Source: Curtobacterium citreum
GTDB taxonomy: Bacteria; Actinomycetota; Actinomycetes; Actinomycetales; Microbacteriaceae
Direction of reading: 5' to 3'
Length of the DNA stretch: 64,000 nt
Assembly: GCF_006715175.1 (NCBI RefSeq)
Contig: NZ_VFMQ01000001.1
Span: 2,976,001 to 3,040,000, forward strand
Under the pieces are notes generated by a model, which did no database searches, was not told the origin of the DNA, and saw only the letters and a list, made by a program, of their open reading frames with translations. Within the stretch, counting starts at the first letter, position 1, and each line of letters opens with the position of its first letter. The translations under genes and the position numbers were made by a program. Of the stretch, positions 35,862 through 64,000 are shown in pieces.

Positions 35862-35903
35862 TCAGCAGCGAGGTGCGCGGCTAGCTGTCTACGGGGAACA
35901 AAA

Positions 35904-35946: not shown

Positions 35947-35957
35947 TCGTCGAAACG

Positions 35958-36272: not shown

Positions 36273-36281
36273 CGGAGATCC

Positions 36282-36956: not shown

Positions 36957-37110
36957 GGTGCTCCCCTCGTACGGCCGAGTGCCGTGTGATCCCTTCTACC
37001 GCAGCTGCGACGCGGGTCGCGTCATCCCCTCGAATGATCGGGTAGCCACGCGGCTACCCAACGCACAGATGCGTCCGGCTTGCCACCACTGCGTCAGTTG
37101 ACGGCTGCGC

Positions 37111-37559: not shown

Positions 37560-37650
37560 GGAGCGCGCGTTGCTCGTTCAGTGGGATTCAGGCACGGCGC
37601 GCACGTAAGTTGAATTTGCCACACCGCGTTCATTCGCGGGACCGTGCTGG

Positions 37651-38602: not shown

Positions 38603-38885
38603 GGTCAGACCTCCCTCCACACGTGCGTCGCAAAATCAAACGCTAGCAGCGGCTCGTCTGTTCCCTCCGCTACGGCGCGATCTGGATGCAGACCGAACGC
38701 AGGTCGCACCGCAGGCACAACCTCGATACCACTGACGGCACGGGAGCCGAGGTCGCATGGGCCAGAGTTGATGTCGCACGGAGCGCCGCGTGCTTCCGAA
38801 AGCCAGCTCTTCGATCCGCACCAACATTGAGATGCACGGCCTCGACCCATCAACATGGACGGGTCGAGACCGTTAACATCCCCGG

Positions 38886-38974
38886 TGCGGAGACGGAGGG
38901 ATTTGAACCCTCGGTCCCCTAAGGGGGACTCCACCTTAGCAGGGTGGTGCACTCGGCCTGACTATGCGACGTCT
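38886..38974 (-). tRNA. tRNA-Ser(GCU)
   Basis: The minus strand folds with acceptor GGAGACG/CGTCTCC, discriminator G, anticodon stem CACCC... closing loop CTGCTAA (anticodon GCT), a long variable arm (GGAGTCCCCCTTAGGGGACC region) and T arm with GGTTCAAATCCCTC. CCA is not encoded. Its 3' end faces the accessory region 34.2-38.9 kb, a common integration side for mobile elements. A TATGGT -10 lies at 39002-39007 on the minus strand. Confidence 0.93.
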
Positions 38975-39086
38975 CCACGCACTCTCGCGAGTGCTGCGAC
39001 CACCATACAGGAGGACGAGCACCCCCACGAACGCGGCGCGAGACGGCGCGAACCTGCCGGTCCCCTGAAGTGGGGACACCAGGGGG

Positions 39087-50042: not shown

Positions 50043-50753
50043 CTAGGCCGCGACCGACGCCGCCCCCGCGGCCGACCCCGCGACCCGCCCGTCCACCACG
50101 GTCACCAGCGCGTCGAGCGCCCCACGGTGCACCAGGTCGTGCGTGACGAGCAGCGTCGCCGTCCCCCGCTCGTGCGTCAGCCGTGCGATGAGGTCCATCA
50201 CGGCCCCGCCCCGCTCCTGGTCGAGCGCGCTGGTCGGTTCATCGACCAGCAGGACCGCGGGGTCGTGCACGAGCGCCCGGGCGATCGCGACGCGCTGCCG
50301 CTGTCCGCCGGACAACTGCGCGGGCCGCTTGTCCGCGTGCCCGCCGAGCCCCACGGCGTCGAGCAGGCCGTCCGTGCGCTCCCGGGTGACCCGTCGGCCG
50401 CGCGCGCCGCCGAGGTGCCCCATCACGAGCAGCTGCTCCCGTGCGGTCAGCGACGGCAGCAGGTTCGACTGCTGGAACACGATGCCGATGCGCTCCCGGC
50501 GGAAGGCGGTGGCCGCGTCCCGCGGGAGTACCGCGACGTCGACCGCGTCGACCCCGCTCCCGACGAGCACCCGCCCGGCGTCCGGCCGGATCAGGGTCGC
50601 CGCGACCGCGAGCAGCGAGGACTTCCCGGAGCCGGACGGCCCGGTGACGCCGGTCACCGTCCCGGCCGGCGCGGTCAGGGTCACGTGGTCGACCGCGGTG
50701 ACACGGCGGTCGCCGTCGGGGAAGGTCAGGGTGACGTCGTCGAGGGTGATCAT
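50043..50753 (-). CDS. ABC transporter ATP-binding protein (LolD/MacB type)
   Basis: 236 residues, ATG overlapping the permease stop. Walker A GPSGSGKSSLL (about 38), Q-loop VFQQSNLLPSL, signature LSGGQRQRVAIARAL (about 141), Walker B VLLVDEPTSAL and H-loop LLVTHDL are all present. It energises the FtsX-like permease encoded just upstream. Confidence 0.93.
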   Translation of the reverse strand: MITLDDVTLTFPDGDRRVTAVDHVTLTAPAGTVTGVTGPSGSGKSSLLAVAATLIRPDAGRVLVGSGVDAVDVAVLPRDAATAFRRERIGIVFQQSNLLPSLTAREQLLVMGHLGGARGRRVTRERTDGLLDAVGLGGHADKRPAQLSGGQRQRVAIARALVHDPAVLLVDEPTSALDQERGGAVMDLIARLTHERGTATLLVTHDLVHRGALDALVTVVDGRVAGSAAGAASVAA

Positions 50754-51850
50754 CGGTTGCTCCCGAGTGCGGTGAGGGGGTCGGCTGCGGTGACGGTACG
50801 GAGGGCGATCGCGGCGCCCGCGAGCCCGAGCAGGGCCATCGCGACGCCGGGCACCAGGGTGGTGAGCGGGCTGAGGAGGAACGGGAGCGTGCCGCCGGCG
50901 ACCGCCCCGAGCACCGCGACGAGGGCGGTGCCCGTGCCGATCCCGAGGACGAGCACGACGAGCGCCTGCCCGAGGGCGTCCCGGACGAGCGACGCCGTGC
51001 TCGCACCGAGGGCCTTGAGCACCGCGACGTCGCCGGCGCGCTGCATGGTCCAGACGGTGAAGAACGCGCCGACGACCAGGGCGGAGACCCCGAACAGCAT
51101 CGCGATCATGAGCGCGAGCGAGCCGACCTCGGACCGGAACGTCTCGAGTGCCGTCAGCGACCCGAGCGGCGTCGCGGCCGAGGTGTGCGTGGCCGCGGCG
51201 ACGGCGTCCCAGTCCGGCGACCCGCTGACGGCCAGGAGCGTCGGTGCCCCGCTGCCCCCGAGCCGACGGTCGGCCGCGGCCCACGCGTCGGGCGTCATCG
51301 CGACGACCGGGGTGTGGCTGTACCAGGCGTCCCCGCCGACCGACGCGACGCGGTACGCCGTACCGGTGATGCTGATGCGGTCCCCGACCCACACGCCGAG
51401 TTCGGCGGCTGCGGCGGCCGACAGGCCGACGGCGTCGTCCCGGTCCGGCGCGAGCGCCGCGACGACGCCGTCGCCGCCGTGCGGCAGCCCGAACAGCGCC
51501 ACCCCGACCGCAGCGGCGGAGGAACCACCGGTCGTCCCGCCGGCGCCGGTGGCGGCCCGCCCCTGCACGATGCCCACCGGGACCACCCGGTCGACGCCGG
51601 CCGACGTCTGCCAACCGGCCCGTGCCTCCCGTCCGATCTCGGACTCGCCGAACGACGGCTGCCCGTCGGACGGCTGCTGCAGCACGAGTCGGTCGCCGGG
51701 CAGGCCGAGCACGGCGGAGACGTTCTGCGACGCCAACCCGCCGGTCAGTCCGGCGAGGAACCCCACGAGCAGGGTGATGAGGGCCACGACGGAGCCGATG
51801 AGCACGAAGCGTCCGCGGGCGAACCGGAGATCGCGCCAGGCGACGAACAC
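50750..51850 (-). CDS. FtsX/MacB-type ABC transporter permease
   Basis: 366 residues from a GTG preceded by GGAAGGA. One helix near the start (VLIGSVVALITLLVGFLAGL), a large extracellular domain of about 190 residues, then three helices near the C terminus (ALMIAMLFGVSALVVGAFFT; LGQALVVLVLGIGTGTALVA; VPGVAMALLGLAGAAIALRT) is the FtsX topology. These systems export antimicrobial peptides or lipids, or signal envelope stress. The divergent two-component system is the probable regulator. Confidence 0.9.
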   Translation of the reverse strand: MFVAWRDLRFARGRFVLIGSVVALITLLVGFLAGLTGGLASQNVSAVLGLPGDRLVLQQPSDGQPSFGESEIGREARAGWQTSAGVDRVVPVGIVQGRAATGAGGTTGGSSAAAVGVALFGLPHGGDGVVAALAPDRDDAVGLSAAAAAELGVWVGDRISITGTAYRVASVGGDAWYSHTPVVAMTPDAWAAADRRLGGSGAPTLLAVSGSPDWDAVAAATHTSAATPLGSLTALETFRSEVGSLALMIAMLFGVSALVVGAFFTVWTMQRAGDVAVLKALGASTASLVRDALGQALVVLVLGIGTGTALVAVLGAVAGGTLPFLLSPLTTLVPGVAMALLGLAGAAIALRTVTAADPLTALGSNR

Positions 51851-51998
51851 GGTCGTTCCTTCCCGGTCGTGGACCCTCCACGACCTCCGTCCCAGCGTCG
51901 CGTCCGTGCTCCCGACGGTCATCGCCGGGTCGATCGGTCCCGGGATCGAACTTCCGGTTGATCCGCCGCGACCCGGCCGTCCGTACGCTGTCCGTGAC

Positions 51999-53168
51999 AT
52001 GGCCCACAGCACGCTCACCCCGGTCTTCGTCGGTCTCCGCACCGGCCTGCACGTGCTGTCCGCCGCGCTCCTGGCGCTCGTCGTCGTCCGGATCGTCGTC
52101 GTCGGCGGCCCGACCGCGCCGCTCGCGGGCGTGCTCGCCGGAGCGTTCGCGGTCGTCTACCTGCTCGGGGCGGTCGTCGCCCGCACGGCCGGGCCCCGCC
52201 GCGTCCTCGCCGGCGCGCTCTGGGTCGTCGGTCTGAGCGTCGTCTGGGTCGGGCTGCTCGTCGTGGTCCCCGAGGCGGCGTACCTGGTCTTCCCGCTCTT
52301 CTTCCTGTACCTGCACGTCCTGCCCCGCGTCGTCGGACCCGCGGCCGTGGTCGCCGCGACGCTCGTCGCGGTCGTGGCGCTCGGCCTGCACGGCGGCTTC
52401 ACGGTCGGCGGGGTGGTCGGTCCGCTCGTCGGCGCGGGCGTCGCGCTCCTCATCGGCCTCGGGTACCGGGCGCTCGCCCGCGAGGCCGCCGAGCGCGAGG
52501 CCCTCGTCGCCGAACTCCTCGCCACCCGGGACCGGCTCGCCGCGACCGAGCGGGAGCAGGGGGTGCTCGCCGAGCGCGCACGGCTCGCGCGGGAGATACA
52601 CGACACCGTCGCGCAGGGCCTGTCGAGCATCCAGATGCTGCTGCACGCGGCCGAGCGCGCGGACGGCGACCGTCCGGGGACCGAGCACATCCGGCTCGCG
52701 CGCGAGACCGCCGCGGACGGACTCGCCGACACCCGTCGCTTCATCCGGGAGCTCGCGCCCCCGACGCTCGACCAGGGGCTCGGCGCCGCGCTCCGCCGGC
52801 TCGCCGAGCAGCAGTGGACCCGCCACGGGCTCACGGTCGGCGTCACCGTCCCGGACGCCGCCCTGCCGATGGACGTCGAGACCGCGCTGCTCCGCCTGGC
52901 GCAGGGCGCGGTCGCGAACGCGATGCAGCACGCGCGGGCGGCGCACGTCGACGTCGTGGTCGCCGTGGACGGCCGGGAGGCACGACTGACGGTCGTCGAC
53001 GACGGCGTCGGGTTCGACCCGGTCACCACCGGCGACCGGGCGGCGGCGACGGACTCCTTCGGCCTCCGCGCGATGGCCGAGCGCGTCGAGCAGTTCGGCG
53101 GCCGACTGACAGTCGACAGTGCCCCCGGCCGCGGCACCACGATCACCGCCGTCCTGGAGGTCCCGTGA
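51999..53168 (+). CDS. Two-component sensor histidine kinase (HisKA_3)
   Basis: 389 residues. Five or six helices occupy about 10-160, followed by a coiled linker ([20 protein letters not shown]) and the dimerisation box [20 protein letters not shown] (His at about 204). The ATPase domain ends with [10 protein letters not shown] and [12 protein letters not shown]. The NarL-type response regulator starts within its stop (GTGA). It is divergent from the ABC exporter, 149 bp away, a layout typical of drug- or peptide-sensing BceRS-like control. Confidence 0.92.
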
Positions 53169-53785
53169 TCCGCATCGTCATCGCCGACGACCACCCCGTC
53201 GTCCGCGCGGGACTCCGAGCGCTGCTCGACGCCGAGGACGACATCGTGGTCGTCGGCGAGGCCGCCACCCCCGACGCCGCGACCGCGATGGCCGAGCAGA
53301 CGGCGCCCGAACTCGTGCTGATGGACCTGCAGTTCGGGCAGGAGACCACGGGCGCCGACGCCACCCGCCGGATCCGGTCGCTCGACGCGCCGCCGTACGT
53401 GCTCGTGCTGACGAACTACGACTCCGACGGCGACATCCTCGGCGCGGTCGAGGCCGGCGCGAGCGGGTACCTGCTCAAGGACGCCCCGCCCGAGGAGCTC
53501 GTGGCGGCCGTCCGCGCGGCGGCCTCGGGGCAGAGCGCCCTCGCACCCGCGATCGCCGGACGGTTGATGGCCCGGATGCGGGCCCCGCGGGTGAGCCTGT
53601 CGGCGCGGGAGATCGAGGTGCTGCGACTCGTCGCCGACGGGGCGTCGAACGGCGAGGTCGCCCGGCGGTTGCACATCAGCGAGGCGACCGTGAAGTCGCA
53701 CCTGGTGCACGTCTTCTCGAAGCTCGGGGTCGCCTCGCGCACCGCGGCGGTGTCCGAGGCCCGGGCGCTCGGCGTGCTGCGGTGA
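53165..53785 (+). CDS. NarL/FixJ-family response regulator
   Basis: 206 residues. The receiver domain has the acidic pair ADDH (residues 6-9), phospho-acceptor Asp in LVLMDLQFG (about 54) and Lys in YLLKDAPPE (about 107). The C-terminal LuxR-type HTH ([20 protein letters not shown] then [16 protein letters not shown]) binds DNA. It likely acts on the exporter promoter between 51850 and 51999. Confidence 0.94.
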
Positions 53786-53847
53786 TCGCTGCGTGCGGCT
53801 CGCGGACAGTGGTCGGCGCGCCCAGGACCATGCACCAGGATGGTCCG

Positions 53848-54276
53848 GTGCTCGTCTCCATCGTCTACATGAGCCGGTCCGTCACGCCCTTCGACGACGA
53901 CGCGCTCGCCGAGCTGCTCCGGGAGTCGCGGCTCCGCAACGAGGCACTCGGCGTCTCCGGGCTGCTCGTGGCGAAGGGCGGCCGCTTCATGCAGCTGCTC
54001 GAGGGGCCGGCGTGGAGCGTCGACGACCGCTTCGCGGCGATCTCCCGCGACCGCCGGCACGACGAGGTGAAGTCGCTCATCCGTGAGGACATCGAGCGCC
54101 GACGGTTCGACGGCTGGTCGATGGCCTACCGGTCGCTCGACGAGCGGGACGTCCGCGACGAGGAGGGCTTCAGCCCCTTCCTGTCCGGGACGATGGACTT
54201 CGCGCCGGAGTTCGACCGGACGAGCGCCGCGTGGCTGCTCAAGTGGTTCCGCGACCGCGAGCTCACCGACCGCTGA
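53848..54276 (+). CDS. BLUF-domain blue-light sensor, first copy
   Basis: 142 residues from GTG 53848, which has AGGA 7 nt upstream; ATG 53830 has poorer spacing. The flavin-site residues of BLUF proteins are in place: Tyr in SIVYMSRS (about 7), Asn in RLRNEALGVSGLLV (about 31) and Gln in GRFMQLLEGP (about 49). It is a short BLUF protein with no output domain, so it must act on a partner. It ends 14 bp inside the convergent TetR gene, whose neighbour is a second BLUF gene. Confidence 0.9.
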   Translation: MLVSIVYMSRSVTPFDDDALAELLRESRLRNEALGVSGLLVAKGGRFMQLLEGPAWSVDDRFAAISRDRRHDEVKSLIREDIERRRFDGWSMAYRSLDERDVRDEEGFSPFLSGTMDFAPEFDRTSAAWLLKWFRDRELTDR

Positions 54277-54874
54277 CGAAGGTCTCGTCGACGACCGCGA
54301 GCAGCCGTGCCCGGTGCGCGGGCGCCGCGGTGGCCTGCACCACCACGCGCCACATCACCGCGACGGCGGGGTCGAGGTCCGCGCGGCCGCTCCGGACCTC
54401 CGCGACGAGCTGCACCCCCGTGAAGTACGGGACGACCGTGCCGCCGAGCTCTTCGGCGCTCAGGTCGGTCCGCAGCTCCCCGCTCGCGAGCGCCAGGCGG
54501 AACACGTCGACGATCCCACCGATCCACTGCTCGTAGAAGGACGACGTCGCACCCGCGAACTCGCCGCGCTCGAGCGACAGCCGGATGCCGGCCCGGACGA
54601 TCGGGTCGGTGCGGAGCAGGTCCGCGATCGCCTTCGAGGCCCGCACGAGCGCCGCGGTCGGCGAGGCGTCGGTGTGCTCGACGACGGCGAACGTCCGGGC
54701 GTTCTGCTCGTCGATCACGGCGAGGGCGAGCGCGAGCTTCGTCGGGAAGTGGAAGTGGAGCGTGCCCTGCGGGACGCCGGCGCCGCGCGCGACGGCGGCG
54801 ACCGCCGTGGCGGCGAAGCCGACGCGGTCGAACTCCTCGGCCGCCGCCACCAGGATCTGCTCGCGTCGTTCCAC
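54263..54874 (-). CDS. TetR-family regulator, gamma-butyrolactone-receptor-like
   Basis: 203 residues from a GTG. The HTH (FAATAVAAVARGAGVPQGTL then HFHFPTKLALALAVIDEQ) and the ligand-domain segments LLRTDPIVRAGIRLSLERGE and YFTGVQLVAE resemble ScbR/ArpA-type receptors of actinobacterial hormone signals. It overlaps BLUF copy 1 at the 3' end and follows BLUF copy 2 by 85 bp, so the regulator may be controlled by light or protein contact with a BLUF partner. Target genes unknown. Confidence 0.82.
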   Translation of the reverse strand: MERREQILVAAAEEFDRVGFAATAVAAVARGAGVPQGTLHFHFPTKLALALAVIDEQNARTFAVVEHTDASPTAALVRASKAIADLLRTDPIVRAGIRLSLERGEFAGATSSFYEQWIGGIVDVFRLALASGELRTDLSAEELGGTVVPYFTGVQLVAEVRSGRADLDPAVAVMWRVVVQATAAPAHRARLLAVVDETFVSGR

Positions 54875-54886
54875 GGTGCCAGTCTC

Positions 54887-54932
54887 CCGGACGCCAGGCG
54901 CGTGGCGGAGCCGCACCGCGCCTCCCGTCCGG
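54887..54932. repeat. Imperfect member of the gene-end palindrome family
   Basis: CCGGACGCCAGGCGCGTGGC (from 54887) and CACCGCGCCTCCCGTCCGG (to 54932) form an imperfect stem. Both arms resemble the 29558 copy with a few changes. It lies between BLUF copy 2 and the TetR start. Confidence 0.6.
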
Positions 54933-54959
54933 GTGTCGTCGCGGTGGTGCGCCCCTCGG

Positions 54960-55430
54960 CTACGCCGCGTGCCGCGCCAGGGTGATGCGCTCCTCCGGGA
55001 CGTCCTGCAGGTCCCGCCCGCGGAACCAGCGGAGCAGCCAGTCGGCCGGCGTGCCGGCCAGACCGGTCGGCAGTCCGCTGCGCTCGGTGAGGAAGGTGTT
55101 GAACCCCGGCTCGTCGCGGACCTCGACGTCGCTCGGGTTGCCGAACGCCATCGACCAGCCGTCGAAGCGACGGGCGTCGATCGTCTCGCGGGACAGGGAC
55201 TTCACGTCGTGGTGCCGCGGGTCTCGCTCGATCGCGGCGAAGCGGTCCTCGACACTCCACGCGGGGCCCTCGAGGACCTGCATGAACCGGCCGCCCTTCG
55301 CGAGCAGCAGGCCGGAGACCCCGAGCGCCTCGTTGCGCAGGCGGGCCTCCCGGAGCATGGCGACGAGCTGGTCGTCGGTGAGGTCGTCGACGGCGACGGA
55401 CATGTACACGAGCGAGGTGAGGGTGGTCAT
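54960..55430 (-). CDS. BLUF-domain blue-light sensor, second copy
   Basis: 156 residues. Flavin-site residues match those of copy 1: Tyr in SLVYMSVAV (about 9), Asn in RLRNEALGVSGLLL (about 33) and Gln in GRFMQVLEGP (about 51). The two copies share the runs EGPAWSV, DRFAAI and RRFDGWSMA, so they are paralogs. The C-terminal 30 residues differ (LPTGLAGTPADWLLRWFRGR). It probably shares a transcript with the TetR gene downstream. Confidence 0.9.
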   Translation of the reverse strand: MTTLTSLVYMSVAVDDLTDDQLVAMLREARLRNEALGVSGLLLAKGGRFMQVLEGPAWSVEDRFAAIERDPRHHDVKSLSRETIDARRFDGWSMAFGNPSDVEVRDEPGFNTFLTERSGLPTGLAGTPADWLLRWFRGRDLQDVPEERITLARHAA

Positions 55431-55474
55431 CGGCGCCAGTCTGTGTCGTGCTCCTGCGGTCGGTCAACGCGGTC

Positions 55475-55508
55475 GTCCGCACACCGCATCGGAGTGCGGT
55501 GTGCGGAC
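55475..55508. repeat. 14-bp-arm hairpin upstream of BLUF copy 2
   Basis: GTCCGCACACCGCA (55475-55488) and TGCGGTGTGCGGAC (55495-55508) are exact complements around TCGGAG. It lies in the 183-bp divergent promoter region between the BLUF and PepSY genes, so it may be an operator as well as an RNA hairpin. Confidence 0.6.
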
Positions 55509-55541
55509 GGACACGCCGCCCACGTCCGGCCGCGCCGTCGT

Positions 55542-55556
55542 TCTACATGTTGTAGA
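55542..55556 (+). promoter_or_regulatory. Operator-like TCTACA-TGT-TGTAGA with overlapping -10
   Basis: A 6-bp inverted repeat with 3-nt centre overlaps TAGAGT (55553-55558), a likely -10 for the PepSY gene. TACA...TGTA half-sites recall BlaI/CopY-type operators, though those usually have a 2-bp centre. Confidence 0.5.
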
Positions 55557-55613
55557 GTTCTCGGGTCGTCCGGCACGGTGCCGGACGCTCCGCCCGACAG
55601 GACCCGCGCCCCG

Positions 55614-57026
55614 ATGCCCAGCACCGCTCCGCCGCCCTCCCGTGGCTGGTTCGCCCAGCTCCTCCTCCGCCTGCACTTCCTCGCTGGCCTGTTCGTCGGC
55701 CCGTTCGTCCTGGTCGCCGCGCTGTCCGGAGCGGTCTACGCCGTCGCCCCGTCGATCGAGCAGGTCGTGTACCGGCACGAGCTCACCGCGCCGTCCACCG
55801 CCGCGGCACGCCCCCTCGCCGACCAGGTCGCCGCCGCGCAGCGGTACGTCGCCGCCAACCACCCCGACGACACCGTCGTCGAGGTCCGTCCGGCGCCCGC
55901 GCCCGGCGACACCACCCGCGTGATGTTCACCGAGGCGGGACTGCTCGAGTCGCAGACCCGCGCCGTGTTCGTCGACCCGGGCGACGCATCCGTCCGGGGC
56001 GACCTGCCCGTGTACGGCACCTCCGGCTCCCTGCCGTTCCGGACGTGGATCAGCACGGTGCACCGCAGCCTGTTCCTCGGCGACGTCGGTCGGCTGTACA
56101 GCGAGACCGCCGCGTCGTGGCTCGGGATCGTGTCGCTCGCCGGCATCGGGCTCTGGGCGTTCCGGCTCCGCACGGCCCGACGGAAGCGCGAGCTCGTCGT
56201 CCCGGACACCCGCCTGCGTGGGTACCGCCGCACCTTCTCGTGGCACGCGGCGACCGGCGCGTGGGTGCTCCTCGGCGCGCTCTTCCTGTCGGCGACGGGC
56301 ATCACGTGGTCGCACTTCGCGGGCGACAACGTGACCGCGCTCCGTTCGGCGCTCAGCTGGCAGGCGCCGACCGTGGACACCGCGCTGGGCGGCGCGGCGG
56401 CGATGGGCATGACGGCCGGCGAGCACGCCGGGCACCACGGGTCCGCCGCGGCACCGGTGGGCTCCCCCGCGACCGTCACACCCGAGCAGTTCGACGAGGT
56501 CCTGGCCGTCGCCCGGTCGGCCGACGTGCACGCCGCCGAGGTCCGCATCCGGCCCGCGGCGACGACCGACCAGGCGTGGACCGTCGAGGAGATCAAGCTC
56601 AGCTGGCCGGTCGCGATGAACGCCGTCGCGGTCGACCCGACGTCGATGACCGCGGTGTCGCAGGTCACCTGGGACGACTACCCGCTCATGGCGAAGGCCG
56701 CGAAGCTCGGCATCAACACCCACATGGGCGCGCTGTTCGGGCTGCCGAACCAGCTCGTGCTGCTCGCGGCGGCGCTCGGCATCGCCGCGATGGTCGTCCT
56801 CGGGTACGTGATGTGGTGGCAGCGACGGACGCCCGGCACGCGCGTCGGCCGCGCGCCCGCCGACGGCGCGCTCGCACGCGCACCGTGGTGGGGTGCGATC
56901 GCCGTCGTCGCCGTCGCGATCGGGCTCGCGCTGCTGCTGCCCGTCGTCGGGGTCACCCTGCTCGGGTTCCTGCTGGTCGACGCGCTGGTCACCGCGTTCC
57001 GGTCGCGTCCCGGGGCGACCCGGTGA
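55614..57026 (+). CDS. PepSY-associated transmembrane protein
   Basis: 470 residues. The start LRLHFLAGLFVGPFVLVAAL with a conserved His, a PepSY-like outer domain, ISTVHRSLFLGDVGRLYSET, the segment TFSWHAATGAWVLLGALFLS with further His residues, and a final helix cluster are the PiuB/PepSY_TM layout. Such proteins are linked to metal or heme reduction and uptake. A His-rich loop (GEHAGHHGS, about 265) suggests metal binding. The stop codon is the first base triplet of a family palindrome. Confidence 0.88.
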   Translation: MPSTAPPPSRGWFAQLLLRLHFLAGLFVGPFVLVAALSGAVYAVAPSIEQVVYRHELTAPSTAAARPLADQVAAAQRYVAANHPDDTVVEVRPAPAPGDTTRVMFTEAGLLESQTRAVFVDPGDASVRGDLPVYGTSGSLPFRTWISTVHRSLFLGDVGRLYSETAASWLGIVSLAGIGLWAFRLRTARRKRELVVPDTRLRGYRRTFSWHAATGAWVLLGALFLSATGITWSHFAGDNVTALRSALSWQAPTVDTALGGAAAMGMTAGEHAGHHGSAAAPVGSPATVTPEQFDEVLAVARSADVHAAEVRIRPAATTDQAWTVEEIKLSWPVAMNAVAVDPTSMTAVSQVTWDDYPLMAKAAKLGINTHMGALFGLPNQLVLLAAALGIAAMVVLGYVMWWQRRTPGTRVGRAPADGALARAPWWGAIAVVAVAIGLALLLPVVGVTLLGFLLVDALVTAFRSRPGATR

Positions 57027-57073
57027 CGGACGGGAGGATCGTGGCGACCCCGCCACGATCCTCCCGTCCGTCA
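57024..57073. repeat. 23-bp-arm palindrome between convergent genes, repeat family
   Basis: Arms 57024-57046 and 57051-57073 are exact complements (TGACGGACGGGAGGATCGTG then GCG) with loop ACCC. The core is identical to the 10351 copy 46 kb away. It starts on the PepSY stop codon and ends 11 bp before the HPS stop, a bidirectional terminator position. Confidence 0.85.
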
Positions 57074-57084
57074 GGCGGTGCCGA

Positions 57085-57723
57085 TCAGGCGGCCGACTGC
57101 TCCGTGATCGCGTCGCGGAGCGCCTTCGCGGCCGCGGCCACGTCGTCGGCGCTGTAGATCGCGCTGCCGGCGACCGCGATGCGGGCGCCGGACGCCTGGA
57201 CGGCGCCGATCGTGTCGGTCGTGATGCCACCGGCGACCGAGAACGGCACACCGGAGGCCTCACCGTCGTGCAGGAGCGTCTCGAACGTGAAGCCCTCCTC
57301 GGCCTGCTCGTCGAGGCCGGCGTGCATCTCGACGAACGTGGCGCCGAGCGCGACGACCTCCTTCGCGCGGGCGGCCTTGTCCTCGACGCCGATCAGGTCG
57401 ACGACGACGCCCTTGCCGTGCGCCTCGGCTGCCTTGACGGCGCCGGCGATGGTGCTGTCGCCCGCGACGCCGAGCACGGTGACGAGGTCGGCGCCGGCGT
57501 CGAACGCGATGCCCGCCTCGAGCTCACCGGCGTCCATCGTCTTGAGGTCCGCGAACACGGTCTTGTCGGGGTGCGCCTGCTTGATCGCGGTGATCGCCGA
57601 CAGGCCCGCGCTCTTGATCAGGGGCGTGCCGAGCTCGATGACGTCGACGTACGGCGCGGCCTTGCCGGCGAGGTCGAGGGCGTCCTCGGTGGTCAGGGTG
57701 TCCATGGCGAACTGGAGCTGCAT
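57085..57723 (-). CDS. hxlA: 3-Hexulose-6-phosphate synthase (HPS)
   Basis: 212 residues, ATG with GGAAGGA 7 nt upstream. The orotidine-5'-phosphate-decarboxylase-like barrel shows MQLQFAMDTLTTEDALDLAG, DVIELGTPLIKS, FADLKTMDAGELEA (catalytic D-x-K, about 58-66) and PFSVAGGITTDTI. The family joins formaldehyde to ribulose 5-phosphate. With the hexuloisomerase upstream it forms the ribulose monophosphate (RuMP) route for formaldehyde fixation or detoxification. Confidence 0.92.
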   Translation of the reverse strand: MQLQFAMDTLTTEDALDLAGKAAPYVDVIELGTPLIKSAGLSAITAIKQAHPDKTVFADLKTMDAGELEAGIAFDAGADLVTVLGVAGDSTIAGAVKAAEAHGKGVVVDLIGVEDKAARAKEVVALGATFVEMHAGLDEQAEEGFTFETLLHDGEASGVPFSVAGGITTDTIGAVQASGARIAVAGSAIYSADDVAAAAKALRDAITEQSAA

Positions 57724-57779
57724 GGTGGTGTCCTTCCGGTGGTGGTTCGTGGGGGTCGCGGTGCCGGTCATGCGCGGCG

Positions 57780-58388
57780 TCACTCGAGGTTCGCGTGGCG
57801 GGGCCACAGCTCGTCGGCGGAGCGGCCGCTGCGCTGCCAGAGCGCGTGGAACAGGGCGTCCCCGAGGAGGGCGACACCCTGCTCGAAGAGACTCCCGGCG
57901 TACTGTGCCGACGCGGTGCCGGAGCGGTCGGTCTTCGTCGCGGCGGGGAGCACGAGCGTGGCCTCGGCGACCGCCGCGAGCGGCGAGTCGTCGGTCGTGC
58001 TCACCGCGAGCACCCGGGCGCCGACGTCGGCCGCGGTCCGTGCGGCCTGCACGATGCCGCCGGTCGTGCCGGAGCCGCTCGCGACGAGGAGCACGTCGCC
58101 GCGTCCGATCGCCGGGGTCGTGGCCTCGCCGACGACGTGCACGCGCAGTCCGAGGTGCATGAGTCGCATCGCGGTCATCCGGAGCGCGAGTCCCGAGCGG
58201 CCGGCACCGTGCACGAAGACGCGGTCGGCGTCGGTGAGCAGGGTCAGCGCGCGCTCGAACGGGGCCTGGTCGGCGGCGCGGACGGTGTCGACGAGGGCGC
58301 GGAGCTCGTCGGCGACGAGTCCGAGGGCGTCGGCGGTGCTGCTGCCGTCGGCGGTGCTGCCGCCGTCGGGCGTGCTGCTGTTGTGCAT
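57780..58388 (-). CDS. hxlB: 6-Phospho-3-hexuloisomerase (PHI)
   Basis: 202 residues from ATG 58388. After a Ser/Gly-rich start the SIS fold shows DRVFVHGAGRSGLALRMTAM, GRGDVLLVASGSGTTGGIVQ and the end segment SLFEQGVALLGDALFHALW, all typical of PHI. It converts hexulose 6-phosphate to fructose 6-phosphate. HPS follows after 56 bp on the same strand, so both are probably co-expressed. The divergent ATPase-LuxR gene begins 116 bp away and may regulate the pair. Confidence 0.92.
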   Translation of the reverse strand: MHNSSTPDGGSTADGSSTADALGLVADELRALVDTVRAADQAPFERALTLLTDADRVFVHGAGRSGLALRMTAMRLMHLGLRVHVVGEATTPAIGRGDVLLVASGSGTTGGIVQAARTAADVGARVLAVSTTDDSPLAAVAEATLVLPAATKTDRSGTASAQYAGSLFEQGVALLGDALFHALWQRSGRSADELWPRHANLE

Positions 58389-58490
58389 GACGACGATGCT
58401 GCTCCGGCGTCGGTGGGAGCGCCGCTGCCCGGCCGGGCGGTCATCCCATCCGATCGGGTGGGCGTGCAGCGACCGGCAGGGTGGGGCGGG

Positions 58491-58496
58491 TAGGTT
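58491..58496 (+). promoter_or_regulatory. Candidate -10 box giving a leaderless LuxR-type mRNA
   Basis: TAGGTT followed by 8 nt and GTG 58505 repeats the arrangement seen before the nucleotidase at 15965. No Shine-Dalgarno is present. Confidence 0.5.
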
Positions 58497-58504
58497 CAGT
58501 CGCC

Positions 58505-59323
58505 GTGACGGACACCCCTGCAAGTCGATCAGCCGCGTCGGAGCACGCCCGCACGGTCGCCGAGCAGGCCGACCGGCACGCCCTGACGCTCGAGTCCGTC
58601 CTCGCGGTGCTCCGCTCCCCCCGGTCGTCCGACACCGCGGCCCGCGCCGAGGCCGTCGAGATCGCCTCGGCCGCGCTCGTCGAGCTCCGGACGGTGACGG
58701 ACCGGCAGCGCAGCACGTTGCTCGAGCCCGTCACGGGGGCGTTCTCCCGGCTGCGGGCCGACCTGCGCCCGCTCGTCCGGTTCGGCGACCTGGACGTGCA
58801 GTTCGTCGAACCGCCCGCCACCGGACGCGCGCTCCCCGGAGCCGTCGCGCACGGTGCCCGCGCGATCGTCCGGACGGCGGTGCTCGCGCTCGTCGACGAC
58901 GGCGTCGCCCGGCGGGTGCGGATCCAGTGGGACTGCGACGGCCGGAACCTGCTCGTGCAGCTCCGCGACGACGGCGCCGGCACGCTCGACGCCCACGACG
59001 ACGCCGTCCGGCCGATCGCCGAGCGGGTCGTCGCCCTCGACGGGACCCTGCAGGTCGACTCGACGCCCGGGTGGGGTTCGACGCTCGACATCACGCTCCC
59101 CCTCGACCCGGCGCCGGGCACGGTCGACCTGCCCGCGGACGCCGACCTGACCTCGCGGGAGCGCGACGTGCTCCGGCTCGTCGTCACCGGCGTGGGCAAC
59201 CGCGAGATCGCCGACGGCCTCGGCATCAGCCCGAACACGGTGAAGTACCACGTGGCGAACCTGCTCCGGAAGCACGGCGCCAGGACCCGCGCGGAGCTCG
59301 CCGCCCTCGGCGCGCGGCCCTGA
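58505..59323 (+). CDS. LuxR-type regulator fused to a kinase-like ATPase domain
   Basis: 272 residues from a GTG placed by the -10 box. The middle (about 90-200) looks like a degenerate GHKL ATPase: VQLRDDGAGTLDAHDDAV is a G1-like box and GTLQVDSTPGWGSTLDITLP a G2-like box. No phospho-acceptor His box is evident. The C-terminal LuxR HTH (LTSRERDVLRLVVTGVGNRE, then IADGLGISPNTVKYHVANLL) binds DNA. It is an ATP-binding regulator rather than a classical kinase-regulator pair. Divergent from the RuMP genes. Confidence 0.82.
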   Translation: MTDTPASRSAASEHARTVAEQADRHALTLESVLAVLRSPRSSDTAARAEAVEIASAALVELRTVTDRQRSTLLEPVTGAFSRLRADLRPLVRFGDLDVQFVEPPATGRALPGAVAHGARAIVRTAVLALVDDGVARRVRIQWDCDGRNLLVQLRDDGAGTLDAHDDAVRPIAERVVALDGTLQVDSTPGWGSTLDITLPLDPAPGTVDLPADADLTSRERDVLRLVVTGVGNREIADGLGISPNTVKYHVANLLRKHGARTRAELAALGARP

Positions 59324-59329
59324 CGGACG

Positions 59330-59395
59330 ACCTCTCGCGCTGAGCGACACCTCACGGGAGCGCGAGCGCGTGAGGTGTCGCTCAGCGCGTGAGGT
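59330..59395. terminator. 27-bp hairpin between convergent genes
   Basis: The core GCGCTGAGCGACACCTCACG (59337-59356) pairs perfectly with 59369-59388, and seven outer pairs follow with one mismatch. It lies 7 bp after the LuxR-type stop and overlaps the last codons of the GNAT gene, so selection has kept it inside coding sequence. Confidence 0.75.
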
Positions 59396-59930
59396 CCGCG
59401 GCGTCGCCCGGCGCCAGCACCTGGAACATGACGTGGTCGCGCCACTCGCCCGCGATGCGGATGTACTGCGGCGCGAGCCCGTACCGGGTGAACCCGTTCC
59501 GCTCGAGCGCCCGCTGCGACGCGGTGTTCTCCGGCAGGGTCTCGGCCTGCACCCGGTGCAGCCCGAGCGCACCGAACGCGTGCGCCACCGCGAGCCCGAT
59601 CGCCCGCGTCGCGTGCCCCTGGCGCACCCGGTCCGCACGCACCCAGTACCCGAGTGCGCACGACTGCAGGGCACCGCGGGTCACGCCGCTCAGAGTGATC
59701 CGGCCGAGCAACTCGTCGTCGTCCCCCACGATCACGAAGGGCACCGAACCGCCGGTCCGGGCCGCCGCGAGCAGCCCGCCGATCGTCGCGCGCTGACCGG
59801 CCTCGGTGTAGTAGTGCTCCGGCCGCGTCGGCTCGAACGGCCGCAGGTGGTCGGCGCTCGCGCTCACGATCGCGGCGAGCTCGGCGGCGTCGGCCAGCTC
59901 GACCGGTCGGAGGCGGGTCCCGGTGCTCAT
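59382..59930 (-). CDS. GNAT-family N-acetyltransferase (RimJ/RimL type)
   Basis: 182 residues from ATG 59930. The pattern RLRPVELADAAELAAIVSAS, CALGYWVRADRVRQGHATRA (acetyl-CoA loop, about 98-117) and ENTASQRALERNGFTRYG (about 146-163) is RimJ/RimL-like, acetylating protein N termini or small amines. The start is only 2 nt from the 3' end of a tRNA-Ser-like sequence, with no ribosome site, so it may be translated from a processed, leaderless mRNA. Confidence 0.88.
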   Translation of the reverse strand: MSTGTRLRPVELADAAELAAIVSASADHLRPFEPTRPEHYYTEAGQRATIGGLLAAARTGGSVPFVIVGDDDELLGRITLSGVTRGALQSCALGYWVRADRVRQGHATRAIGLAVAHAFGALGLHRVQAETLPENTASQRALERNGFTRYGLAPQYIRIAGEWRDHVMFQVLAPGDAADLTR

Positions 59931-59954: not shown

Positions 59955-60087
59955 GCTCCCCACAACCCGCTGTTGGCGGGCTTTGGCCCAGGAAGTCCGG
60001 AGTTACCGCCATCTGGGGCGTCACTGGCTAACAACTTTGAGTCTCAATCGCGACGGAGTGTGGGCAAAATGTGGGCACGGCGAACAC

Positions 60088-60360
60088 CTAACGCTTCCGC
60101 ATCCTACGCAGCTGCGACGGGCCGTCACCGTCTCGCTTGCGCTTCCGTCCAAGCGACTGCGGGGACTGCTTCCACGGGTCGCGCGGCTGCGATAGGTACG
60201 CACGAACTTCGGATGGCCAGAAGCGGTGCTGACGACCAACTCGGATCGACGGAAACTGCGGGTCGTTGCCGAGATCGCGCGCCTTCCATTCGCTGATGCG
60301 AAGCCATGCTGCGAGTCTGGCCACGTCGAGGGCTTCGCTGTCGTCAGGTGCACCATTCAT
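60088..60360 (-). CDS. Excisionase-like helix-turn-helix protein
   Basis: 90 residues. ALDVARLAAWLRISEWKARD and FPSIRVGRQHRFWPSEVRAY are the MerR-like HTH_17 pattern of excisionases and small phage DNA-binding proteins; the C terminus is strongly basic. It is divergent from another HTH gene with 87 bp between the starts. Its place next to the attachment site fits a role in excision or control. Confidence 0.75.
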   Translation of the reverse strand: MNGAPDDSEALDVARLAAWLRISEWKARDLGNDPQFPSIRVGRQHRFWPSEVRAYLSQPRDPWKQSPQSLGRKRKRDGDGPSQLRRMRKR

Positions 60361-60447
60361 GTCTGGACGCTAGGCGCTGGGCGGCGACAGTTGGTGGATG
60401 TCGCAGAGCGCGCGCATGTCTTCGACAGACGGCCGTACCGTGACGTC

Positions 60448-60717
60448 ATGACAGGGGACATTGAGAGCATCATCCGTCGGATCATCCGTGAAGAGCTCAC
60501 CAGAGCGAAGCCAGAAGCCGAACCCGAGCTCGACGGCAAGCGGGCCTTCTCAGTACAGAGCATGTCAGAGGCGTACGAGGTCAGCGTCTCCTACCTGCGA
60601 GACGACATCGCCACGGGCAAGCTGCGACCGAGGTACCTGGGACGGAAGCCGCTGATCAGCAGGACCGAGGCCGAACGTTGGTTCACCGCCCTCCCTGACG
60701 AGCGGCCCGCCGGCTGA
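60448..60717 (+). CDS. Small helix-turn-helix DNA-binding protein
   Basis: 89 residues. An N-terminal helix (IESIIRRIIREELTRAKPEA) may mediate oligomers; then AFSVQSMSEAYEVSVSYLRD and RYLGRKPLISRTEAERWF form an HTH_17-like domain. TACCGT at 60436-60441 lies 6 nt before the ATG, so its mRNA may be leaderless. Together with the divergent gene it may form a small genetic switch. Confidence 0.72.
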   Translation: MTGDIESIIRRIIREELTRAKPEAEPELDGKRAFSVQSMSEAYEVSVSYLRDDIATGKLRPRYLGRKPLISRTEAERWFTALPDERPAG

Positions 60718-60761
60718 CCTCTTTTTTTCGGCGGGGAGGGATGAGGGCACTTAACCTTTGG

Positions 60762-60817
60762 GACTGCCGTGCAGGGCCACCCGGGGGTCGCTGCCCTGCA
60801 CCGTCGACAGGACAGTC
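60762..60817. terminator. Branched hairpin between convergent small genes
   Basis: GTGCAGGGC (60769-60777) pairs with GCCCTGCAC (60793-60801), and outer GACTG pairs with CAGTC (60762-60766 with 60813-60817). It lies between the HTH stop and the small minus-strand gene stop. Confidence 0.5.
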
Positions 60818-60836
60818 TCACCCGTACTAGTCCGGA

Positions 60837-61040
60837 TTAGGCCGGGGCGTCGGCCCGCAAAACGATCGAAGTGCTGTGTCCGACCAGAATCTTCTGCACT
60901 CCAGCTGGCACCGGAACGTCAGCAAACACCGGTCGCCCGAGCTGCTGAGTCAGCGTAAGCGCTTTCCCGATAGCGGTCGCAAGCTCGTCCTGACTTGCGG
61001 TGCTCTGGATCTGCTGGCCGTTGTAGAACAGGTCTGCCAT
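60837..61040 (-). CDS. Small hypothetical protein
   Basis: 67 residues with a strong ribosome site (GGAGGAAGG 6 nt upstream). The sequence MADLFYNGQQIQSTASQDEL then IGKALTLTQQLGRPVFADVP is soluble and unlike anything I recognise. It follows the TM2 gene by 31 bp on the same strand, so the two likely share a transcript. Confidence 0.6.
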   Translation of the reverse strand: MADLFYNGQQIQSTASQDELATAIGKALTLTQQLGRPVFADVPVPAGVQKILVGHSTSIVLRADAPA

Positions 61041-61071
61041 GGGGCCTTCCTCCGGTTAGGTGTGAGTTGGG

Positions 61072-61332
61072 TCAGCGAAGCGTCGGCGCGACGGAGTTCT
61101 TCTCGTTCACGTCAACGACCTGACTATCGAGCGTGAAGATGTCGACGAGGACACCGATACCCACGAGACCACCAGTGCACGTGTAGAGGATGCCGGTGCC
61201 GATCTTGCCCATGTAGTAGCGGTGAGCCCCGAAACCGCCGAAGAAAATCAGCCACTTGTAGGCGGTGCCGATGTGCTTCTGAGGGCGGGCGTTCGTATAG
61301 GTGGGCTGGGGTGCCGGAGCAGTGCTGGTCAT
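61072..61332 (-). CDS. TM2-domain membrane protein
   Basis: 86 residues, ATG with CAGGAG 7 nt upstream. The TM2 motif is clear: TAYKWLIFFGGFGAHRYYMG, then KIGTGILYTCTGGLVGIGVL and VDIFTL. Two helices joined by a GAHRYY-type turn. Function is unknown; the family is common in bacteria and phages. Confidence 0.82.
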   Translation of the reverse strand: MTSTAPAPQPTYTNARPQKHIGTAYKWLIFFGGFGAHRYYMGKIGTGILYTCTGGLVGIGVLVDIFTLDSQVVDVNEKNSVAPTLR

Positions 61333-61364
61333 GTCGGGTCTCCTGGTCGATCATCAGTGAGCGA

Positions 61365-61380
61365 TTCCCACCTCTGGGAA
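61365..61380 (-). promoter_or_regulatory. Palindrome at the TM2 gene promoter
   Basis: TTCCCACCTCTGGGAA is a 6-bp inverted repeat with 4-nt centre; TACGTT on the minus strand (61384-61379) overlaps it as a possible -10 for the TM2 gene. It may be an operator. Confidence 0.35.
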
Positions 61381-61432
61381 CGTACAGCGACCGCCCCCGA
61401 GATATCGACGCCCCCAAGCGGGGGCTGGTGCC

Positions 61433-61576
61433 GACGCTCGCACCGACGGCACACGCGAGCTCGAGGGCCGCGTCATCGCCTACACGGAACGGGACGTGCT
61501 CGTCGAGTGGGGGTTCGGGCAGGGAGCCGAGTGCGCGTGGGTGTGGCGAGACGCCGTACGCGAAAGCCCCCTGTAG
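61433..61576 (+). pseudogene. Fragment of a small phage-type protein without start codon
   Basis: The plus frame reads DARTDGTRELEGRVIAYTER then DVLVEWGFGQGAECAWVWRD up to TAG 61574. The strand-like pattern looks like real protein, yet no start codon exists between the upstream stop (61358) and this block apart from an internal GTG. I read it as a remnant. A small hairpin GCCCCC-AAGC-GGGGGC lies at 61410-61425. Otherwise 61333-61622 holds nothing clear. Confidence 0.35.
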
Positions 61577-61622
61577 GAGGGACAGCGCAAACTGTTCGGG
61601 GCCCGTAATCTGCGTCGAACCC

Positions 61623-62846
61623 ATGACTACCCAAGACGAACTCAAGGAAGCTCGGAACCACGCTGCGTGGTTGGACCTGGAGCAACTCTCAGAGCTGCTG
61701 TCAGCGGCCGCGCCCCGGTCCAGCACCGATCGAGAGACTGTCAGTCGAGCGATCGCGGCGGTTCAGTATGCGCGGCGTTACCGATCGTCAAATTTGAGGC
61801 TTTTGCCGCGCGACCGCATCAACTCTCTGACACGCCTACAAAGTCACGCCTCCCAGTTGTCCAACCTCATTGAGGGCTGGGACCAAAGCGGGGCTATGAC
61901 AAACTCGACAGTCTCGCAGCTCGATCGATATGTAGACGAAATCCTCGAGGAAGTTAATCGATGGCCAGCGCTGCCAAAAGCGGAACGTGATCGCGTCAAC
62001 GTCGACGCTGACGAGGCCGAACGCACTGTTGCTTCAGCATCTCTTGATGCCCTACTGGGCGATGTCGAAAGCGCACGGGAAGCCTTGCGGGTCCTGCAGG
62101 ATACTTCCAGCACGGTGGAGGCGAGATCGCAACAAGTCGTTGCAGAGGCGCAAGCCGCTACCGAAGCTCTCCAAGATGCTCTCCGTGAGCAGAAAGCAGC
62201 CTCCGATTCCGAACGTGCCTCAGCCATGGAGGAGGTGCAGATACTTGCAGAGGCGCAGCGAGTGTCCATCAAGGCCGACGCAGAAAGCCAGGGTAAACAA
62301 CTTCTGGCCGACGCGAAGGCGATTATCGACAAATTGACCGCCGACGAGGCGACAGCTAAGAAGCTGCTCGCTTTTGTTTCGGACGGTTCGGTCTCTGGCG
62401 GTTACGGCACGTACGCGAAGTCTGAACTGAATGCGTACCGACTTTGGAATATATTAGGTGCGACTACCGCCCTGGCGGGCGTAGGCTACCTGATTTGGCA
62501 CTTTCAAGATATCTCGGGTCTTGATATCTCAGTAACAATCACTCGAGCCGCACTTTCGATTCCGATTTTCGGATTCACAGCCTTCGCTTTCAAGCAGGCG
62601 ACCCTCCGACACCGCAATTCCGTTGACGCCACTTACCGCGCTCTGGACCTACTAGCACTTCCGCCATTCACCGACGATATGCCGGAAGCTGAACGGTCCG
62701 AACTGCGCATGATCATGGGGCAACGCATTTTCTCGAGAATCCCCGATCATGAGGAAAGACGACCAGAATCAGACGGAACAATTACGCCAGAGGCAATAAC
62801 TTCGATCACAGCCCTACTGAAGACACTGCAGAACGTGGTCAAGTAG
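61623..62846 (+). CDS. Coiled-coil membrane protein of unknown function
   Basis: 407 residues; TAATCT at 61606 would leave a 5-nt leader, so the mRNA is nearly leaderless. A helical N-terminal part (about 1-120) is followed by a long coiled coil rich in Ala, Glu and Gln (about 130-245), then two helices, NILGATTALAGVGYLIWHFQ (about 280) and ALSIPIFGFTAFAFKQAT (about 310), and a cytoplasmic end. Codon use is markedly less GC-biased than in chromosomal genes here, so it is recently acquired. No family recognised; a membrane-linked accessory or defence role carried by the prophage is possible. Confidence 0.75.
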   Translation: MTTQDELKEARNHAAWLDLEQLSELLSAAAPRSSTDRETVSRAIAAVQYARRYRSSNLRLLPRDRINSLTRLQSHASQLSNLIEGWDQSGAMTNSTVSQLDRYVDEILEEVNRWPALPKAERDRVNVDADEAERTVASASLDALLGDVESAREALRVLQDTSSTVEARSQQVVAEAQAATEALQDALREQKAASDSERASAMEEVQILAEAQRVSIKADAESQGKQLLADAKAIIDKLTADEATAKKLLAFVSDGSVSGGYGTYAKSELNAYRLWNILGATTALAGVGYLIWHFQDISGLDISVTITRAALSIPIFGFTAFAFKQATLRHRNSVDATYRALDLLALPPFTDDMPEAERSELRMIMGQRIFSRIPDHEERRPESDGTITPEAITSITALLKTLQNVVK

Positions 62847-62850
62847 TGCG

Positions 62851-62891
62851 CAGACCCCCCTCGAGCTCCCGAAGGAACCCGAGGGGGTCTG
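62851..62891. terminator. Bidirectional hairpin between convergent genes
   Basis: CAGACCCCCCTCG (62851-62863) pairs with CGAGGGGGTCTG (62880-62891) with one bulged C. It lies 4 bp after one stop and 15 bp from the other. Confidence 0.7.
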
Positions 62892-62906
62892 GTCGTCCGC
62901 GTGTCG

Positions 62907-64000
62907 TCACATGGGGCTGAGGAAGCGAACGAGCTGGTCAGCGATGAACGCGTGCGACATGTCCGTGGGGTGGATGCCGTCCGTGTAGTACGGATTCGCC
63001 GCGGCCCCGTTGGCGGCCGGCATGCGCGCGTTCAGATCGAGGACGCACACCGATGGGTCGGCCGCTGCGATCTCGTACTGAGCGGCGACGAACGCTGACC
63101 AGGCGTCGCCGGTGAAGGTACCGGTGCGGAGCCAGTACGGCATGAGCACGATCGACGGCGGCGTGGTGACGTTCGCCTTGCACGCGGCGATAATCTTCTG
63201 CAGGTTCTGCTTCGCCGTGGACGCTGACGCGTTCGCCGCGTAGTCGTTGATCGAGAGCGCGATGACGAACAAGCTCGGCTGGATCGCAGCGATCGGCTTC
63301 GGAGCGTCCAGGTTGGCGAAAAACGTGGTCGACTGCCCGTAGTAGCCGTTGCCGTACGTGTGCACGCCCTGGTTCTCGTCGCCGTCGTTGACATAGATGC
63401 CCGAGAAGTAAAAGCTCCCGGACGCCCCAGCAAGGGTGATCGTGTGACTGCCGGACGCCCCGAGGGTGACTCGAATGACCTTCCCGTCGGACACCCCGCT
63501 TCCGCCGAACGAGATCGTCTGCGGTGTCCCGCCGTCGACGGTGACGGTCGCGGTGGCCCCGTTGACCTGCACGCCGTGGATGTCGACGCTCGTGCCCTTG
63601 ACGGTGATCGTCCACGTGTCGGTCGACGCCTTCAGGATGTACGTGCGGCGGCTCAGGCCGAATCCAGTGTCCGTGTAGCTGGTACCGCCGCCCGGGTTCG
63701 CAGGAAGGTTCCCGGCGACCGTGGCCGGCTGACCGAACGAGTTCGCCATCTGCCACGGGTCGATCCAACCGACACCTCCGCCGCTCCCGAGCGCGGTGGT
63801 CGGGAAGTGACGACGAAGCAGCATCTGTGCCCGCTGCACCCAGCGCCGATCGCGAGTCGTCGCGCCTTGCCCCTCGGTGATGCTGTCACCGGGGCCGAAA
63901 CGGACGACCGCGGGAGCGTAATCGCGGTTCGCAAGTGCGAACCACCAGGACTGCAGAGCTCGGGCGCGCTGCTGCTGCAGGTACTCGAGGCTGTTGCCAG
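62907..64000 (-). CDS. SGNH/GDSL hydrolase, phage tail-type (5' end outside window)
   Basis: At least 364 residues; the frame stays open to the window edge, so the start is beyond it. The GDSL block FGPGDSITEGQGATTRDRRW (Ser about 120 codons from the edge side) is coded upstream of a GTG that might be mistaken for a start at 63839. Later come VIALSINDYAAN (block III-like Asn) and YYTDGIHPTDMSHAFIAD (block V Asp-x-x-His). A beta-rich insert (VDIHGVQVNGATATVTVDGG) lies between. Phage SGNH proteins of this type sit on tails and de-acetylate or cleave surface polymers. Confidence 0.85.
   Translation of the reverse strand, partial: GNSLEYLQQQRARALQSWWFALANRDYAPAVVRFGPGDSITEGQGATTRDRRWVQRAQMLLRRHFPTTALGSGGGVGWIDPWQMANSFGQPATVAGNLPANPGGGTSYTDTGFGLSRRTYILKASTDTWTITVKGTSVDIHGVQVNGATATVTVDGGTPQTISFGGSGVSDGKVIRVTLGASGSHTITLAGASGSFYFSGIYVNDGDENQGVHTYGNGYYGQSTTFFANLDAPKPIAAIQPSLFVIALSINDYAANASASTAKQNLQKIIAACKANVTTPPSIVLMPYWLRTGTFTGDAWSAFVAAQYEIAAADPSVCVLDLNARMPAANGAAANPYYTDGIHPTDMSHAFIADQLVRFLSPM

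Follow-up and report, generated by a model that had tools for sequence, protein, structure and literature searches.

A hormone-receptor-type TetR regulator flanked by two short BLUF photoreceptors in Curtobacterium citreum, and its possible control by blue light

Genes of the locus and their products

We analysed a stretch of 64,000 nucleotides (the window) from the 3.61 Mb genome of Curtobacterium citreum. The genome holds six BLUF genes in total. Two of them, called BLUF1 and BLUF2 here, lie at window positions 53848-55430 on either side of a TetR gene; the four others comprise two short genes and two that run on into a TetR-like part. The genes and control features at the locus are listed below.

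51999-53168, plus strand: NarL-type kinase
53165-53785, plus strand: NarL-type response regulator
53836-53841, plus strand: CAGGAT, -10-like box of BLUF1, 6 nt ahead of its GTG, from aligned upstream regions
53848-54276, plus strand: BLUF1, short BLUF photoreceptor of 142 aa (PF04940, 93.3 bits; Y7/N31/Q49/W90/M92 intact)
54263-54874, minus strand: TetR, regulator of ScbR/AvaR1 hormone-receptor type, 203 aa from the GTG at 54874 (longer reading from 54916)
54881-54886, minus strand: GAGACT, -10-like box of TetR, 6 nt ahead of its GTG, from aligned upstream regions
54886-54933, no strand assigned: inverted repeat separating BLUF2 from TetR, belonging to a set of 42 similar sites genome-wide
54960-55430, minus strand: BLUF2, short BLUF photoreceptor of 156 aa, paralogue of BLUF1 (PF04940, 96.9 bits; Y9/N33/Q51 intact)
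55438-55443, minus strand: CAGACT, -10-like box of BLUF2, 7 nt ahead of its start, from aligned upstream regions
55462-55467, minus strand: TTGACC, -35-like box of BLUF2 picked out by eye, in many aligned BLUF2 upstream regions
55474-55509, no strand assigned: perfect 15-nt inverted repeat around a 6-nt spacer, adjoining the BLUF2 -35-like box on its upstream side
55614-57026, plus strand: PepSY_TM protein

The three central genes are separate, and BLUF and TetR domains are not in one chain. An earlier note on this DNA had described two paralogous short BLUF photoreceptors with intact Tyr/Asn/Gln flavin sites flanking the TetR gene, and this description was confirmed: the two proteins are 62% identical, and in a tree built from 74 BLUF sequences, with 8 rows of each, they form one clade with a support of 1.0. 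The same note had the genes overlapping or abutting. This is true of BLUF1 and TetR, which are convergent with a tail-to-tail overlap of 14 nt, but not of BLUF2 and TetR, which share a strand and are separated by 85 nt when TetR is read from the conserved GTG at 54874 and by 43 nt when it is read from 54916. The kinase and response regulator pair ends 62 nt upstream of BLUF1 on the common strand. Further away, the window contains two stretches of lower GC content (34001-39000 and 60001-64000, 57-69% versus about 74%), which are possible mobile islands. The first of them includes a transposase with integrase-core matches (34592-35461) and, on the minus strand, an ORF in which an HExxH motif was seen by eye (38105-38620).

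With a cut-off of 25 bits for BLUF calls, PF04940 was the sole domain found in BLUF1 and in BLUF2, and an output domain is absent. The Tyr, Asn, Gln, Trp and Met positions are invariant across all 53 BLUF1 orthologues. For the BLUF2 orthologues, Asn, Gln, Trp and Met are invariant in 24 of 24 and Tyr in the 22 of 22 rows that cover the position, a count that omits two rows with a late called start. Both proteins end in a segment LL[KR]WFR. Searched for with one narrow pattern, LL-x-WFR, the segment was also found in the four other BLUFs of this genome, in 19 of 28 other BLUFs of the genus, in all six fusions included in the tree and in 5 of 20 BLUFs from other genera. Since BLUFs away from any copy of TetR carry it, the segment does not set this locus apart. 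No gene matching the TetR of the locus (E 1e-5) was present within 1.5 kb on either side of the two other short BLUFs of the genome.

The regulator was compared with known receptors at three levels. In its 217-aa reading it narrowly passed the NCBIfam ScbR model NF041196, with 152.9 bits against a cut-off of 150, a margin of 2.9 bits. Its best sequence relatives in the PDB are AvaR1, a gamma-butyrolactone receptor, a further TetR protein (6srn) and CprB. An AlphaFold2 model computed from 33 rows had a mean pLDDT of 89.6, and a fold search of the PDB with this model returned only hormone receptors at ranks 1-34 (AvaR1, TylP, CprB, 7ky1/6srn). The residues of AvaR1 around avenolide are named in the available text of PMC7347384. 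In an alignment whose numbering was matched through Trp127, AvaR1 Gln64, Trp127, Val158, Phe161, Thr162 and Gln165 correspond to TetR Q57, W117, V148, F151, T152 and Q155, while Thr108 corresponds to S100 and the position of Thr131 holds Ile or Val. Across the 55 TetR orthologues, Trp127, Val158, Phe161 and Thr162 are kept in every one and Gln64 and Gln165 in 54 each; the Thr108 position is Ser in all 55, and the Thr131 position is again Ile or Val. The set is also largely kept in 14 family relatives that are 34-49% identical (a gene was obtained from 14 of 15 loci), and an intact pocket is therefore a property of the wider TetR group. Judged by model score, predicted fold and pocket residues, which agree, the protein is of the hormone-receptor type, and the resemblance to gamma-butyrolactone receptors proposed earlier is borne out at this level. 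In L119 (genome G009) and L121 (G025) the reading frame of TetR is broken into two, either by sequencing error or by decay.

Promoters and conservation of the neighbourhood

Similar -10-like boxes were found in the aligned upstream stretches of many orthologues of BLUF1, TetR and BLUF2. Because these boxes lie 6-7 nt before the three start codons, the upstream sequences suggest that each gene has its own promoter and a leaderless transcript. A generic E. coli-type scan gave neither a sigma-70 promoter match nor a T-tract terminator match, and Rfam gave no match in 53000-57000. A single operon of BLUF2 and TetR is doubtful, since TetR keeps its own -10-like box and the hairpin at 54886-54933 in loci without BLUF2. 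The same hairpin was considered as a private operator and rejected on account of the 42 similar sites in the genome (hand count). Together with the 41 other sites it represents a long GC-rich palindrome repeated across the genome, GGAGGCGCGGTGC...GCGCCT, which may be a terminator or a REP-like repeat.

The conservation of the gene pair was quantified in 56 stretches around TetR orthologues from 60 Curtobacterium genomes. One stretch (L120, holding a second, 53% paralogue in G006) was excluded, which left 55 loci, those of G009 and G025 with their split TetR frames included. Overall, BLUF1 was found less than 2 kb from TetR in 53 of the 55 and was convergent with it every time. The gap between them was -38 to 84 nt in 28 loci and 355-1953 nt, with other genes in between, in 25. 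As controls, PGM lay less than 2 kb from TetR in 25 of 55 loci and the response regulator and the PepSY gene in 6 of 55 each; BLUF1 and PGM were within 2 kb of each other in 29 of 49. The comparison of 53/55 with 25/55 for TetR and PGM and 29/49 for BLUF1 and PGM indicates that the BLUF1-TetR pair is tighter than the local gene order. PGM is kept in the TetR region in 51 of the 55 loci.

Across the 60 genomes, TetR and BLUF1 were both present in 53, neither was present in three (G040, G050, G051), and one occurred alone in four: TetR without BLUF1 in G021 and G025, BLUF1 without TetR in G002 and G044. In the latter two, TetR is missing from between its usual neighbours. The co-occurrence had a Fisher p of 0.003, uncorrected for shared ancestry. 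Six extra genomes from a search of the genus were also inspected; the pair was found in five, whose stretches had been picked by their BLUF1 match, with BLUF2 as well in four, and BLUF1 was absent from the sixth (G104).

The association of BLUF2 with TetR is looser. It was found at the TetR locus in 24 of the 55 loci, at a distance of 69-224 nt in 18 and of 4.2-4.7 kb in six, in which a block carrying an alpha-L-fucosidase gene has been inserted between the two. By hand count, 37 of the 60 genomes have BLUF2-like genes. In 24 of them the gene is at the TetR locus and in 12 it is elsewhere; in the remaining one, G004, a contig break intervenes, with BLUF2 and the fucosidase block on one contig and TetR on another. 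The link of BLUF2 to TetR is therefore confined to some lineages. Outside the genus, 22 genomes of the family have relatives of both BLUF and TetR (E 1e-20, about 29-50% identical), and by coordinates compared by eye none of the 22 has the pair close together. Rare joint occurrence of the genes, which the earlier note had named as a refuting outcome, is thus not what Curtobacterium shows, but it is what the genomes beyond the genus show.

The hormone side and the BLUF-TetR fusions

The idea of hormone-type control, which the earlier note had attached to the cluster, fared worse. The search for an AfsA synthase gave 0 matches in the C. citreum genome at E 0.01. No match to the ARE operator (Streptomyces consensus, from the available text of PMC7480387) was found at up to 3 mismatches in 50331-59481, and the total for the window was below chance. 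It is possible that TetR responds to a ligand from a source other than AfsA, or to a foreign ligand. In the genus as a whole, AfsA was found in 4 of 66 genomes (G042, G051, G101, G104), and in the two of these four that could be compared (G042:C25 and G051:C1) it adjoins a second ScbR paralogue of about one-third identity. In G042 and G051, AfsA and the second ScbR-type TetR possibly make up a genuine butyrolactone system within Curtobacterium. Syringolides, which are lactone-like, are products of AvrD-type enzymes, and these enzymes could be a candidate ligand source other than AfsA. An AvrD-family gene (PF05655; L229:2185-3336, minus strand) adjoins the closest TetR relative found outside Curtobacterium, which is about 50% identical.

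BLUF and TetR folds also occur in one piece. By hand count, near full-length matches to such fusions are present in 44 of 66 Curtobacterium genomes, with two in the C. citreum genome itself:

G000:C1:3238261-3239310 (L005:1498-2553), plus strand: BLUF-TetR fusion, Gly for the photoactive Gln
G000:C1:2964634-2965629 (L006:694-1779), minus strand: BLUF-TetR fusion, Gly for the photoactive Gln and Phe for Tyr

The second of these overlaps the neighbouring gene by 4 nt, and that gene reads like a PP2C/SpoIIE phosphatase. Among 291 other genomes of the family no fusion was found at E 1e-45, where the best candidates, at most seven per genome, were scored. In Pfam the fusions are BLUF plus TetR_C_6, with TetR_N scoring below threshold in one of the two C. 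citreum copies and undetected in the second; the TetR of the locus has TetR_C_45, and the two belong to different subfamilies. A model of one fusion (P0001; computed from 39 rows, with a mean pLDDT of 74.6 that drops under 50 in the linker and in part of the BLUF) has the order BLUF fold, helix with LLEWFR, TetR fold. Where the BLUF part could be aligned, Gly replaces the photoactive Gln in 36 of 36 fusions, whereas Asn is kept in 36 of 36 and Tyr in 35 of 36. Because Tyr and Gln are called essential elements in two models of the light response in the available part of PMC8508746, and Gln is replaced throughout, we infer that the Curtobacterium fusions are light-blind. BLUF and TetR folds are thus joined in the genus, but the BLUFs that appear light-competent by their residues are the separate ones. 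The fusions were set aside as proof of light control of the locus TetR, since they belong to a different TetR subfamily and have lost the Gln. The one-piece architecture itself is already in print: Table 4 of PMC8508746, as far as it is available, lists a BLUF+AcrR protein of Curtobacterium luteum (WP_058726129.1) after Kaushik et al. 2019.

Possible control by light and the rival explanations

Short BLUF proteins act through partners. Because the BLUF1-TetR pairing persists and BLUF-TetR fusions exist, TetR is the best candidate partner at this locus. By analogy with known systems, we predict that BLUF1, together with BLUF2 where present, binds TetR and likely alters its grip on DNA in blue light, a model that we put forward tentatively and rate at somewhat below an even chance. 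Having no output domain of its own, the short BLUF would work by capturing or releasing the TetR repressor, as BlsA does with AcoN. Contact may be made through the C-terminal part of the BLUF, perhaps the LL-x-WFR segment, and blue light would cause BLUF1 to change the grip of TetR on DNA. The TetR pocket may still accept a lactone-like ligand, in which case one repressor would receive two inputs, light and a small molecule. Binding, light effect, ligand, operator and target genes are alike putative. The full version, a two-input repressor that senses a lactone through the pocket of TetR and blue light through two docked BLUFs, while the fused BLUFs have lost the light-sensing Gln, seems to us unlikely.

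The closest functional parallel is BlsA of Acinetobacter, which binds the repressor AcoN in the light and Fur in the dark according to the available parts of PMC6712483 and PMC6595428. Like the BLUFs here, BlsA is a short BLUF without an output domain, and a regulator is its partner, as is proposed here. The partners differ, in that AcoN resembles the sigma-54-dependent Fis family in those texts and Fur is an iron regulator, whereas here a TetR of the hormone-receptor type is the candidate; in addition, the genes are adjacent here and the host is an actinobacterium. The regulator itself resembles AvaR1, ScbR, TylP and CprB in model score, predicted fold and pocket residues, with Ser for Thr108. 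It is unlike them in a genome without an AfsA match, a locus without an ARE match, photoreceptors as neighbours, and Ile or Val for Thr131. The C. luteum BLUF+AcrR protein likewise joins a BLUF to a TetR-type regulator in the same genus, but it is in one piece and known from the table entry available, whereas the genes in the window are separate with their Gln intact. Among the open-access papers searched, none combined BLUF with butyrolactone, and no title described a BLUF that works together with a TetR of hormone-receptor type; the one paper with both a BLUF domain and the TetR family is by its title on CryB of Rhodobacter, and those on short BLUFs and a transcriptional regulator deal with Acinetobacter, apart from the review PMC8508746. 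EL222, whose HTH is of the LuxR type, is a one-piece LOV protein, whereas BLUFs and separate genes are involved here. What it has in common with our model is a flavin photosensor acting on DNA binding (PMC4844311, in the part available). BlsA already provides a case of a short BLUF that acts on a repressor; a hormone-receptor partner would be a new variation on it.

Several other explanations need to be weighed against the light-control model. It is about as likely that the genes are neighbours without a working link, the ScbR-type TetR and the BLUF pair sharing a conserved stretch of chromosome and serving other genes. We give this reading, too, rather less than an even chance. The convergent orientation and apparently separate promoters of BLUF1 and TetR speak for it, as do the retention of PGM in the region, the two genomes with BLUF1 alone and the two with TetR alone, and the lack of adjacency in all 22 genomes outside the genus. 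Separate promoters, the two genomes of 60 with BLUF1 alone and the separation outside the genus also count against the light-control model, as do the off-locus BLUF2 genes, the fusions, with their other TetR subfamily and Gly for Gln, the LL-x-WFR segment in BLUFs away from TetR, and the lack of a match to TetR around the two other short BLUFs of the genome. A mere neighbourhood does not readily account for BLUF1 staying within 2 kb in 53 loci even though 25 of these have 355-1953 nt and further genes in between, while other neighbours drift further, nor for the fusions of BLUF and TetR folds within the genus. The BLUFs might instead work with another partner, for example the NarL-type kinase and regulator pair at 51999-53785, which lies just upstream of BLUF1 on its strand; the partners of BlsA include regulators, response regulators among them, in the available part of the review PMC8508746. 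We regard this as improbable, since the response regulator is the immediate neighbour of BLUF1 in no more than 4 of 53 loci and comes within 2 kb of TetR in six of 55.

The wiring could also run in the reverse direction, with a ligand-responsive TetR binding the palindrome upstream of BLUF2 and setting the amount of photoreceptor, while light does not act on TetR. The 36-bp palindrome at 55474-55509 adjoins the -35-like box of BLUF2. With its 6-nt spacer kept and up to 2 mismatches allowed, it occurs once in the genome, and two more sites appear at 3 mismatches. With starts as called, a repeat scoring at least 13 was found near this position in 16 of the 24 TetR-linked BLUF2 upstream regions (4 of these 16 repeats are alike in the outer arms only). 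By contrast, it was found in 1 of 12 upstream regions of BLUF2 genes far from TetR, there with another sequence and position, and comparable repeats occurred in 5-7% of 820 control upstream regions (scores of at least 14 and at least 12, respectively). According to the available part of PMC7480387, palindromes of this sort are present in promoters that hormone receptors repress, and these are often the promoters of the receptors themselves. On the other hand, the palindrome has no ARE spacing, the locus has no ARE match, and the upstream regions of TetR and BLUF1 lack the palindrome. In seven loci it lies 16-64 nt past the end of the upstream gene, and four of the six loci (of 55) in which PepSY replaces that gene carry only weak repeats (scores 5-9), as would be expected of a terminator. 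Taken as sequence, the palindrome could be a candidate TetR operator or the relic terminator of a lost upstream gene. We consider the reverse wiring unlikely overall, though less so than a different partner.

If the light-control model is correct, blue-light sensing and hormone-type control would meet at one regulator in Curtobacterium. The three genes would then form a compact system for studying how short BLUFs choose their partners, and the fusions with Gly for Gln provide a natural comparison, in which the two folds are joined without the residue said to be necessary for light sensing.
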